DNA of 64,000 bases from Pseudomonas sp. VD-NE ins (lineage in GTDB: Bacteria; Pseudomonadota; Gammaproteobacteria; Pseudomonadales; Pseudomonadaceae), in assembly GCF_031882575.1 (NCBI RefSeq), contig NZ_CP134772.1, positions 6,111,001-6,175,000 on the forward strand, written 5' to 3'. Of this stretch, positions 32,944-57,119 are shown piece by piece. Each line of letters starts with the position of its first letter. The stretch's first letter is position 1. The notes beneath the pieces are model-generated. The model searched no databases. It was not told the DNA's origin and saw only the letters and a program-made list of their open reading frames with translations. The translations under genes were made by a program, and so were the position numbers.

Positions 32944-33264
32944 GCTGCTTCTCTTGTCGGGACTTTCGGGCGGTTTCCGGTAAAAACCGCACACATACTG
33001 AGCCTTCACTCTAGTACTGGATCCAAGAAAGCAGAAGCTGTCATCAGGCCATCATTTAACCAAAGCGTGAGTTTGCCGACTAACGGTCACCGCTGAAGCC
33101 CCCGGAAACCGGCAGAGATGGCATTTCGACAGGATGTTGACGTCAATCATCTGCCAAACGGGCGTTAACAAATTTTCCCTCTACGCTTATAAAGGCCGCC
33201 CCAAAACGTGCGGGCTAGAGCTTCTGGCACGCACGTGCAGTGAAACTTGAGTGGAAGAACCGAC
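32944..33264. other. Divergent control region between the GGDEF-EAL and PL7 genes
   Basis: 321 bases with no gene. A plausible sigma-70 promoter for the lyase is TTAACA at 33165-33170, a 16-base spacer and TTATAA at 33187-33192. I see no operator. Confidence 0.5.
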
Positions 33265-33933
33265 ATGATCGATCTCGCAACCTGGAACCTCAGCGTTCCC
33301 GTTGGCAGCCCGCCATACACCGTCGAAACCTCCAAACTGGTGAACGGCTTCAAAGATCAGTACTTCCATTCCGACACCGGCACCTTGTTCTTCTGGTCAC
33401 CGGTTACCGGGTCAAAAACCGAAAACGCCATTTATCCGCGCACCGAACTGCGCGAAACCTACAGCAACGGCACCCTGCGCAACTGGTATTACCCAGACGC
33501 CGACAATTCATTGCGCGCGACCGTGACGGTGAACAAAGTACCGAGCTCCGGCAAGATCGTCATCGGCCAGATCCATGCTTATGAAAGCCAGAAGCCGATG
33601 GTCAAACTCGAATACCAGTACAAGACCAAAACTGAAACCGGCAACCTGGTGATCAAGGTGCGCATGCATCCGGATGAGGATGAAAGCCGTGTCATCACGC
33701 TGGCGACCGGGATCAAACTGGATCGCGAATTCAACTACCTCATCCACTTGAGTCCTGGCGGTGCGTTGGGTGTAAGTGCGGCGGGTTATCAGTGGGATTC
33801 ACAGATCAGCGCGACTTGGCGCAACAAGCCGTTGTATTTCAAGGCTGGGGTTTATGTGCAGGACAACACGGGGTACACCAGTGAAGGTGGGCAGGTGACC
33901 TTCTCCAAACTCGACATCGATCACGACAAATAG
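33265..33933 (+). CDS. Alginate lyase, polysaccharide lyase family 7 (222 aa)
   Basis: A PL7 beta-jelly-roll lyase that cleaves alginate by beta-elimination. The three family motifs are present: R-T-E-L-R (YPRTELRE, about residues 57-64), Q-I-H (VIGQIHAY, about 97-104) and YFKAGVYVQ (about 193-201). This supports a catalytic His/Tyr pair. Q-I-H rather than Q-V-H suggests guluronate preference, though that is a tendency only. No signal peptide is seen: the protein begins MIDLATWNLSVPVG, directly at the fold. The short single-domain PL7 protein of P. aeruginosa is similar in this. A strong terminator follows. Confidence 0.92.
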   Translation: MIDLATWNLSVPVGSPPYTVETSKLVNGFKDQYFHSDTGTLFFWSPVTGSKTENAIYPRTELRETYSNGTLRNWYYPDADNSLRATVTVNKVPSSGKIVIGQIHAYESQKPMVKLEYQYKTKTETGNLVIKVRMHPDEDESRVITLATGIKLDREFNYLIHLSPGGALGVSAAGYQWDSQISATWRNKPLYFKAGVYVQDNTGYTSEGGQVTFSKLDIDHDK

Positions 33934-34549: not shown

Positions 34550-34902
34550 ATTCAACAACGTTGTTTAAGCCATCCAGCGGTTACTTCCGGATGCCTACAA
34601 CAGCTTGCGTCGTTGCCTACGGGTACGCCAGAATCCGCCGGCTTGTGCGCCTGGCGGGCCATCGGTAACTTGATTCGCGTCACTGATTTCCAGTGATCGG
34701 GTTTAGTAGCCCGTGGTTTCAAGCGTTGTGCACAAGCATCTGTCAGTCGGGTATTTCCATACCTGCGCTTGATGGTAGCTGTGCGCAGGGCACCTTCGGG
34801 TGCGCCGGCTTGCTCGAAACCCCGGTCTACTAACCTGCGTACAGTTGCCTCCCCTTTGATTTAGTAGCCAAAGCGGGGGCACTCCAATCAGGTTTCGAGC
34901 AA
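34550..34902 (+). promoter_or_regulatory. Structured leader of the DUF6124 gene, candidate translational switch
   Basis: Segment B (34810-34835) can pair in two exclusive ways. With upstream arm A (34699-34724) it forms a long imperfect stem enclosing a GGTAT/ATACC hairpin (34750-34763) and a UUCG-capped GCACC/GGTGC hairpin (34790-34803). With downstream arm C, its TTGCTCGAAACC (34810-34821) pairs perfectly with GGTTTCGAGCAA (34891-34902), and CTACTAA (34828-34834) pairs with TTAGTAG (34861-34867). The B:C stem ends at the base before ATG 34903 and would bury the ribosome site. Further hairpins lie upstream (TCACTG/CAGTGA at 34680-34696). The pairings are seen in the sequence; switching is inferred. 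Confidence 0.6.
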
Positions 34903-35265
34903 ATGACAAAATCAACGCCGCACCCGCCAGAAACAGATCCCGCATCCCCCTACGAATCCCTCGATTCGAAAAAACTCAACGACGCCGCCGAACGCGCCCT
35001 CGACCATTACCTCAAACCGTCCGCCTTCATCATGGCCAGCACACATAAACCCGAACCCATGTACCTCGCCAATCCGAAGTACAACACCGAATCCCTGCTG
35101 GCCAACGCCAGCGAAACCCTGGGTTCAGCCAGCGAAATGCTCAACAACTTCGCCGCCATGCTCGATACCTCACACCGCAAGACCGCGCTAGGCATCGCGC
35201 AGGTGGTCATGCTTGGAGAACTGGCGGTGAATCAGGCGCTGGATCACGTTGAACTGAAGGAATAA
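34903..35265 (+). CDS. DUF6124 family protein (120 aa)
   Basis: A Pseudomonas-specific small protein that I assign to the DUF6124 family (related to DUF3077) from its layout: an N-terminal polar stretch (PPETDPASPYESLDSKKLNDAAERALDHYL), a middle rich in Asn/Ser (NTESLLANASETLGSASEMLNNFAAML) and a helical C-terminus ending NQALDHVELKE. It has no signal peptide or membrane segment, and its function is unknown. ATG 34903 is directly preceded by CAGGTTTCGAG, the only ribosome-site candidate, which lies inside the leader's 12-base pairing segment. A terminator follows. Confidence 0.8.
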   Translation: MTKSTPHPPETDPASPYESLDSKKLNDAAERALDHYLKPSAFIMASTHKPEPMYLANPKYNTESLLANASETLGSASEMLNNFAAMLDTSHRKTALGIAQVVMLGELAVNQALDHVELKE

Positions 35266-35273
35266 CCGCCCAT

Positions 35274-35302
35274 AAAAAAACCCGCTTCATGGCGGGTTTC
35301 TT
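35274..35302. terminator. Bidirectional terminator
   Basis: AACCCGC and GCGGGTT pair around TTCATG. An A-run lies on one side and TTTCTT on the other. It ends the DUF6124 transcript on the plus strand and, with a better T-run, any minus-strand transcript carrying the 17-codon frame. Confidence 0.85.
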
Positions 35303-35314
35303 AAGCCAAATGGA

Positions 35315-35368
35315 TTAAATGTTCCGCATACGCAACATCGACATCAAAATGTGACGGTAGCGCAACAT
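35315..35368 (-). CDS. Possible 17-residue peptide gene
   Basis: The minus strand holds a strong ribosome site AAAGGAG nine bases from an ATG that opens an 18-codon frame, MLRYRHILMSMLRMRNI then TAA. The bidirectional terminator follows 13 bases later. The peptide contains an internal near-repeat (MLRYRHI, MLRMRNI) and is strongly basic. It could be a leader peptide, a toxin-like peptide or chance; only the ribosome site and terminator support it. Confidence 0.4.
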   Translation of the reverse strand: MLRYRHILMSMLRMRNI

Positions 35369-35385
35369 GGAATGACTCTCCTTTA

Positions 35386-35526
35386 ATCACCCGTCTCGGT
35401 ATTCAACTACGCGAAAAACGTATAAATCGTGGCCTGACGCAGGCGCAGCTTGCCGACCTAGAAGGACTGACACGATACAATCGAATAAAGGGGACAAAGA
35501 CACACAAAAGGGGACGAAATCTTGAT
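35386..35526 (+). pseudogene. Remnant of an XRE/HipB-type helix-turn-helix gene
   Basis: A frame without a start codon encodes ITRLGIQLREKRINRGLTQ followed by AQLADLEGLTRY, the first two helices of an XRE-family DNA-binding domain. It then runs directly into a GGGGAC palindromic element and ends. The recognition helix and the rest of the domain are missing. This is a relic cut short by insertion or deletion. Confidence 0.65.
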
Positions 35527-36337: not shown

Positions 36338-37402
36338 TTAGTTAACCTTGGCGCTCAACTCACCCTTCAGATAACGCTGATACATCGCTTCCAGCGAGAT
36401 CGGTTTGATCTTCGAAGCATTACCGGCAGTGCCGAACGCTTCATAACGAGCGATACACACATCACGCATTGCGGTCACGGTCGCGCCGAAGAATTTACGT
36501 GGGTCGAATTCGCTCGGGTTGGTGGCCATCAGGCGACGCATTGCGCCGGTGGAGGCCAGACGCAGGTCGGTGTCGATGTTGACCTTGCGCACGCCGTACT
36601 TGATGCCTTCGACGATTTCTTCAACCGGTACGCCGTAGGTTTCTTTGATGTCGCCGCCGTACTGGTTGATGATCGCCAGCCACTCTTGTGGCACCGAGGA
36701 CGAACCGTGCATCACCAGGTGGGTGTTCGGGATGCGCTTGTGGATTTCCTTGATGCGGTCGATCGCCAGCACGTCACCGGTAGGTGGCTTGGTGAACTTG
36801 TAGGCGCCGTGGCTGGTGCCGATGGCGATGGCCAGGGCATCGACCTGGGTGCGCTTGACGAAGTCAGCGGCTTCTTCCGGGTCGGTCAGCATTTGGCTGT
36901 GATCCAGAACGCCTTCGGCGCCGATGCCGTCTTCTTCACCGGCCATGCCGGTTTCCAGCGAACCCAGGCAGCCCAGCTCGCCTTCTACCGAAACGCCGCA
37001 GGCGTGCGCCATGGCCACGGTTTGTTGGGTAACGCGGACGTTGTAGTCGTAGTCGGTCGGGGTCTTGCCGTCTTCGCCGAGGGAGCCGTCCATCATCACC
37101 GAGCTGAAGCCCAGTTGGATCGAGCGCTGGCAGACGTCGGGGCTGGTGCCGTGGTCCTGGTGCATGCACACCGGGATGTGCGGGAATTCTTCGATCGCGG
37201 CGAGGATCAGGTGACGCAGGAAAGGCGCGCCGGCGTATTTGCGAGCGCCGGCCGAAGCCTGGACGATCACCGGGGAGTCAGTCTTGTCAGCGGCTTCCAT
37301 GATGGCGCGCATCTGCTCAAGGTTGTTGACGTTGAAGGCTGGAACGCCGTAGCCGAATTCGGCTGCGTGGTCCAACATCTGGCGCATGCTGATAAGTGCC
37401 AT
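36338..37402 (-). CDS. fba: Fructose-1,6-bisphosphate aldolase, class II (354 aa)
   Basis: A zinc-dependent aldolase that cleaves fructose-1,6-bisphosphate to glyceraldehyde-3-phosphate and DHAP (in Pseudomonas mainly gluconeogenic). The class II signatures are present: [15 protein letters not shown] (about residues 77-91), [12 protein letters not shown] (about 135-146) with a catalytic acid, and zinc ligands in [10 protein letters not shown] and [10 protein letters not shown]. Length is normal for the 354-aa subclass. It lies downstream of epd-pgk, as in many proteobacteria, but two lipoprotein genes and a REP doublet intervene, so it probably has its own promoter. Confidence 0.97.

Positions 37403-55535: not shown

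Positions 55536-57119
<1,584 letters not shown>

Follow-up and report, generated by a model that had tools for sequence, protein, structure and literature searches.

The window, a stretch of 64,000 nucleotides from the chromosome of Pseudomonas sp. VD-NE ins (NZ_CP134772.1, positions 6,111,001 to 6,175,000 of the forward strand), contains a gene for a 120-amino-acid DUF6124 protein at 34903-35265, and a leader at 34550-34902 on the plus strand lies immediately upstream of this gene (Table 1). An alginate lyase gene is located at 33247-33933, with the leader and the DUF6124 gene downstream of it; on the far side is an ORF (36338-37402) that by its appearance we take to encode a fructose-bisphosphate aldolase. 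A preliminary description of this DNA had named the downstream gene as DUF6124, which the Pfam match supports, and had proposed that one leader segment (B) can pair with either of two others, A upstream or C beside the start codon. Segment A (34699-34724) reads GGGTTTAGTAGCCCGTGGTTTCAAGC, and A and C do share the words TTTAGTAGCC and GGTTTC(A/G)AGC. The proposed pairing of B with C was found at 12 of 12 and 7 of 7 positions: TTGCTCGAAACC (34810-34821) is the exact reverse complement of GGTTTCGAGCAA (34891-34902), and CTACTAA is complementary to TTAGTAG (34861-34867). The coordinates originally given for CTACTAA (34828-34834) were off by one, however, as the motif occupies 34827-34833. As described, C finishes at the base before the ATG at 34903; b2, the part of C that reads GGTTTCGAGCAA, overlaps the AGG ribosome site (34890-34892) by two bases. 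The longest inverted repeat in 34550-34902 is 12 nt; in 500 dinucleotide-preserving shuffles of the leader, the longest inverted repeat had a mean of 7.8 and a maximum of 11, and 12 was reached in 0 of 500. The promoter-like sequence TTGTGC-17-TAACTT stops just 5' of the first hairpin.

Table 1. Features of the DUF6124 leader and gene, in window coordinates.
Feature	Position	Strand	Basis or remark
22-bp element GCCAGAATCCGCCGGCTTGTGC	34627-34648	+	Holds -35-like TTGTGC (34643-34648) at its end
Predicted sigma-70-like promoter, TTGTGC, 17 nt, TAACTT	34643-34671	+	Pattern match; TAACTT at 34666-34671
5' hairpin GTCACTG..CAGTGAT, at predicted transcript start	34679-34697	+	Corresponds to the stem modeled in RF03163 (c4-a1b1)
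a1, TTAGTAG, upstream target of a' (within A)	34703-34709	+	7/7 complementary to a'
b1, GGTTTCAAGC, upstream target of b' (within A)	34715-34724	+	9/10 complementary to b', one A-C mismatch
C4 antisense RNA (RF01695)	34768-34855	+	71.5 bits, cut-off 45, E 5.7e-14
Mature C4 RNA, candidate by analogy with P1	about 34774-34850	+	77 nt, begins GGT
P2 hairpin of C4, UUCG loop	34790-34803	+	Read in the sequence
b', P3 loop of C4 (first half of B), TTGCTCGAAACC	34810-34821	+	Rfam alignment
a' linker, CTACTAA (second half of B)	34827-34833	+	Rfam alignment
a2 target, TTAGTAG (within C)	34861-34867	+	7/7 with a'
b2 target, GGTTTCGAGCAA (within C)	34891-34902	+	12/12 with b'
DUF6124 protein gene, 120 aa, presumed controlled gene	34903-35265	+	PF19619, E 1.4e-19
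Intrinsic-terminator-like AAACCCGC..GCGGGTTT, 3' of gene	35278-35299	+	Read from the sequence

Rfam identified a C4 antisense RNA (RF01695) within the leader, with a full-length match (1-87) well above the curated cut-off. A second family, c4-a1b1 (RF03163), matched the 5' part weakly (27.2 bits against a cut-off of 46.7). The preliminary statement that no described RNA family occurs here is therefore incorrect, and by its sequence the window leader is a member of the known C4 family. In the terms used for phage P1, where b' is the P3 loop of C4 and a' the linker, segment A corresponds to a1/b1, B to b'/a' and C to a2/b2; B is thus the core of C4. The UUCG-loop hairpin of the preliminary description is present and is the P2 hairpin of C4. 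Taken alone, the window C4 (34774-34850) has a predicted fold of -42.9 kcal/mol with three stems, in which the P3 loop carries b' and the linker carries a'.

Citron and Schuster reportedly described the C4 antisense RNA of phages P1 and P7 in 1990. In the phage P1 record (AF234172), the annotated order is a1, b1, C4, a2, b2, icd, and the order of parts in the window is identical. C4 of P1 starts with GGT, as does the window C4 at 34774, and the GG there is at the position expected for a 5' end processed by RNase P. In both P1/P7 and the window, the P3 loop holds b' and the linker a', with a2/b2 downstream beside the start codon and a1/b1, which in the window is a candidate target, upstream, all parts of one transcript. 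The targets differ: those of P1 are icd and ant, whereas the window target is a chromosomal DUF6124 gene. The promoter regions show a parallel: the P1 record has a C1 operator overlapping the c4 promoter, and the 22-bp element of the window holds a -35-like hexamer.

The C4 match, the complementarity between loop and target, and the P1-like order of parts can be read directly in the sequence. From these and the analogy with P1, we infer processing by RNase P, action in trans on sister transcripts, a translational block, and a role for a1/b1 as second target or decoy. We estimate a probability of roughly 85% that the C4 RNA in the DUF6124 leader is cut out and pairs with a2/b2 over the ribosome site, likely silencing the gene. 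Following the P1 model (PMC5320573 and PMC8198154), RNase P would free C4 from the transcript; the freed RNA is predicted to fold independently; b' would pair with b2 over the ribosome site and a' with a2. This pairing would block translation of DUF6124 and likely keep the gene silent. C4 may also act in trans on sister transcripts, and a1/b1 may serve as a second target or a decoy.

A C4 search of the window's chromosome (6.70 Mb, one contig), in which 150 of 1747 first-look candidates were scored, identified at least 42 matches, 41 of them above the cut-off. When each C4 was folded alone, at least 12 pairs were predicted in the P1 stem in 42 of 42 modules. A DUF6124 gene occurs within 400 nt downstream of 34 of the 42 modules, and for 39 of the 43 DUF6124 matches a C4 lies no more than 1200 nt upstream. 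In 40 of the 42 modules, c4-a1b1 lies 60-220 nt upstream of C4; 19 of the 41 genome matches to this family scored above the curated cut-off, whereas 22, like the window copy, scored below it. The first ORF downstream of modules 5 and 19 encodes DUF3077 (PF11275, identified by scanning proteins), and in modules 1 and 2 DUF3077 is the second ORF, behind a short one. The ORFs downstream of modules 37, 39, and 42 have no Pfam match. The window target is DUF6124 and not icd or ant, the target genes of the P1-type immI operon; among the 42 modules, an antirepressor-like (Bro-N) ORF was detected only behind module 6. This C4 unit (L006, G000:C1:6396084-6396169) is followed by an ORF of 170 aa, of the kind closest to P1 ant. 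In module 23 (G000:C1:1715007-1715090), the DUF6124 gene is frameshifted, and the b'-b2 match of 5 nt is among the weaker ones.

Unlike P1/P7, this chromosome thus carries 42 copies of C4 with differing codes. All 42 P3 loops are different. The a' linker is less diverse (26 words when overlapping 6- and 7-mers are counted separately, about 22 after merging), and it matches both a1 and a2 by at least 6 nt in 42 of 42 leaders. Across the 42 modules, the mean longest contiguous match was longer with a module's own target than with permuted targets for b'-b2 (7.24 vs 4.10), b'-b1 (6.33 vs 4.71), a'-a2 (7.10 vs 4.10), and a'-a1 (7.24 vs 4.55), and for each of these pairings 0 of 10,000 permutations reached the observed mean. 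When the four pairings were summed, the module's own target was uniquely best in 41 of 42 modules; with a'-a2 plus b'-b2 only, it was uniquely best in 39. Based on b'-b2 alone, this count was 27 of 42, obtained with a P3 loop finder that may place a few stems off by a base. Nine modules (5, 13, 22, 23, 31, 33, 36, 39, and 40) show an uninterrupted b'-b2 match of no more than 4-5 nt. In 31 of 42 modules, b2 overlaps a hexamer resembling a Shine-Dalgarno sequence by at least 2 nt; in the other 11, the overlap with the called sequence is smaller. The preliminary description had proposed to judge the leader by whether arms A and C are conserved together and whether pairing is kept while the letters change. 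In the main, both hold among these paralogous leaders, in the fit of a' to a1 and a2 and in the fit of b' to its own b2 and b1 beyond permutation. Because nearly every C4 loop code fits its own mRNA best, the 42 units may operate side by side with little cross-talk.

We found 22 matches to the 22-bp element GCCAGAATCCGCCGGCTTGTGC in the genome at ≤3 mismatches, compared with 0 for the reversed control. Based on coordinate comparison, all 22 sit at C4 modules (22 of 42). A loose sigma-70-like pattern, applied without a chance control, occurs upstream of 31 of the 42 modules, with a spacing of 17 in 30 of the 31. Because the 22-bp element was found only at C4 modules, it is plausible as a candidate operator of a common regulator, which would start these units together from the promoter element; shared descent of the modules is a plain alternative.

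We aligned 22 modules, picked for carrying the 22-bp element; conservation of the element in this alignment is therefore circular, a problem that does not extend to the variability of b1, b', and b2. Mean pairwise identity was lowest in b1 (0.22) and b' (0.29), the most variable segments measured; b2 (0.39) was similar to the spacer preceding C4 (0.35) and to the stretch far upstream (0.30). The values for a1, a2, the a' linker, and the P1 stem were 0.72-0.81. In the accessible text of PMC5320573, a' is named as the specificity part in P1/P7; here, however, b' is more variable than a'.

The site downstream of the alginate lyase gene allowed orthologous units to be compared across genomes of the genus. 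Of 185 genomes with an alginate lyase match, 55 were read, on the plus strand and mostly over 3.5 kb, and the first C4 match per genome was taken. A C4 was present in the stretch in 27 of the 55 genomes and absent in 28. Genome G104 was counted by one of its stretches (L076), as the other (L148) ends before C4, and G198, whose C4 lies on the opposite strand, was outside the comparison. From the 27 we dropped G048 and G005, which have no suitable ORF, and G052, which has an ORF of another kind. The remaining 24 genomes, all with an ORF like that of the window, carry six b' codes, found in 10, 6, 5, 1, 1, and 1 genomes. In 22 of the 24, b' matches the b2 of its own locus over 6-12 nt; the match to b2 of other codes has a mean of 3.9 and a maximum of 6. 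Codes epsilon and zeta, each found in a single genome, fit the b2 of their own locus over only 4 nt, and some other codes better, up to 6. The contrast is smaller for b1 (own 6.1 vs other codes 4.8). At the orthologous site, then, b2 tracks b' clearly and b1 does so less.

Mean protein identity at this site was 81-85% between the three common codes and 79-87% within them; proteins of the rare codes have 65-82% identity to the others. Identity between codes is about the same as within codes; the code has thus changed with hardly any change in the protein, either through leader exchange or step by step. The unit itself is present or absent by genome; based on relatives and paralogs, the homologous stretch extends from about 34551-34595 to 35244-35480. 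No target-site duplication was clear by eye among one filled site, five C4-free sites, and one remnant. In one genome (L165 45-114), all of the unit beyond the -35 hexamer is missing from the slot, and the 5' end that is left looks like a deletion remnant.

A broader proposition, for which we consider the odds even, is that Pseudomonas chromosomes hold dozens of mutually orthogonal self-targeting antisense switches built on one phage-type RNA scaffold, each copy with a loop code of its own that is written three times in its transcript (b1, b', and b2) and has been replaced in place during evolution while the protein stays, and all started together from a shared promoter element. If true, they would amount to a naturally bar-coded array for gene silencing that guards a large family of small DUF6124/DUF3077 proteins.

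The uncut leaders can also adopt other folds. Of the 42 modules, 20 have a predicted minimum free energy (MFE) structure with the C4 fold, 18 have one with A:B, and 4 have one with B:C; forcing the C4 fold carries a median predicted cost of 0.45 kcal/mol. The window is among the four, with its B:C helix favored over the C4 fold by a predicted 9.2 kcal/mol. Because these structures are split among the three folds, A and C may indeed compete for B, adding a further layer of control in cis. Carried further, this suggests a leader switch like that of IsrK, in which A:B leaves C free and the gene on, B:C or the C4 fold turns it off, and a short 5' RNA with a1/b1 acts as decoy or activator, adding to or replacing C4 in trans. 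In the Salmonella prophage Gifsy-1, the accessible text on IsrK (RF01394; PMC4825925) describes a similar arrangement, an alternatively folding 5' leader RNA that controls a small ORF, with a silent and an active fold and a short IsrK that activates in trans. Moreover, isrK stands directly before C4 in published tables for Burkholderia cenocepacia (PMC4603805) and Xylella fastidiosa De Donno (PMC12189769), as far as the accessible parts of these articles extend.

In the window, however, the isrK match (34679-34756) scores 20 bits, under the family cut-off of 50, whereas C4 is the dominant match, and the predicted MFE structure is B:C and not A:B. A simple exact-stem scan of the stretch from a1b1 to C4 detected a terminator-like signal in only 2 of the 42 modules, and MFE prediction for RNAs of this length is weak evidence. 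We therefore keep the IsrK-like switch as a tentative, rather unlikely alternative or addition to silencing by an excised C4. In module 1 (L001), a terminator-like stem with T7 lies between a1b1 and C4, as expected for a short IsrK-like RNA.

Among 59 sampled Pseudomonas genomes, including that of the window, C4 was identified in 54; over all 59, copy number ranged from 0 to 54 with a median of 17. DUF6124 was present in 47 of the 59; seven genomes have C4 without DUF6124, and none has DUF6124 without C4. Copy numbers of C4 and DUF6124 are correlated over the 59 genomes (Spearman 0.88, not corrected for phylogeny). Across the phylum, where at most 10 candidates per genome were scored, C4 occurs in at least 62 of 398 genomes and at least 41 of 212 genera.

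Similar units also appear in viral sequence collections. A pattern built from one a' type identified 45 IMG/VR stretches, of which 44 have a C4-like match and 41 have an ORF after C4 similar to the DUF6124 proteins of this genome. In one IMG/VR contig (L235 12156-12641, minus strand), a C4-DUF6124 unit lies in what appears by eye to be a P2-like phage gene cluster. According to the accessible text of PMC5320573 and PMC8198154, C4 of P1 is an immunity RNA. The chromosomal C4s could thus be domesticated superinfection immunity against phages or prophages of the same code, with the DUF6124 gene as cargo; the Bro-N ORF behind module 6 (Pfam 3.3e-12; PHROGs anti-repressor Ant 3.5e-12) is also in keeping with such a role. 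Against this, the C4s find matching targets in their own transcripts, DUF6124 at E 0.01 matched just one among 50,697 phage records and none among 72,556 plasmids, and many of the IMG/VR stretches may consist of host DNA flanking prophages. We regard an immunity function as improbable compared with control of the adjoining gene.

The preliminary reading of the leader as an RNA switch stands insofar as the placement suits control of translation, B can pair with A or C, and C lies beside the ribosome site; a metabolite riboswitch or thermosensor, which mutually exclusive helices across a ribosome site would also fit, we reject as extremely improbable, because Rfam places B in an antisense RNA, conservation among the segments measured is lowest in b' and b1, unlike a ligand pocket, and 42 differing loops occur in a single genome. 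Nothing in the sequence evidence points to control by ligand or temperature.

The window DUF6124 protein is predicted to contain helices at residues 22-37, 40-43, 62-86, and 89-114, and its AlphaFold model has a mean pLDDT of 72 and a pTM of 0.47. A Foldseek search of this model against the PDB returned 0 matches at E ≤0.001 (best E 3.0). PADLOC gave no match for four downstream proteins, and NCBIfam gave none for three.

C4 RNAs in Pseudomonadales were predicted in 2010 by Weinberg et al., as cited in the accessible text of PMC5320573. The same text reports 21 Group 1 C4-like sRNAs in the single genome of Acinetobacter baumannii AB5075, with variable a' and b' and with processing at GG inferred from RNA-seq. 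AB5075 and Pseudomonas sp. VD-NE ins are therefore alike in having many C4 copies per genome with variable a'/b'; however, that text names no targets for AB5075, whereas most copies here match their own mRNA. A search of the open-access literature, with subscription papers and supplements outside its scope, returned no paper on DUF6124 and one for DUF3077, and the accessible open-access text, supplements excluded, gave no description of many C4 copies in Pseudomonas. What is new here is thus the many-coded, self-targeting C4 array with DUF6124, the C4 family itself being already known.

On this reading, the classic phage immunity RNA C4 appears as a chromosomal gene-control module in one genus, at up to 54 copies per genome. 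Almost all copies in the single fully analyzed genome match their own mRNA better than that of any other unit, and this self-fit gives many-copy bacterial C4 RNAs a candidate target set. It would tie the families DUF6124 and DUF3077 to a mechanism that is already known, put 34 DUF6124 genes in one cell under separate C4 keys, and offer dozens of candidate orthogonal antisense pairs.

Other RNA features were observed in passing. A PrrF sRNA gene (L202 1532-1679; 158 bits) adjoins a DUF6124 match without C4 (G000:C1:4238275-4238460), and elsewhere in the window an SAH riboswitch (RF01057) was identified at 55587-55686 on the plus strand, with 67.4 bits against a cut-off of 37.
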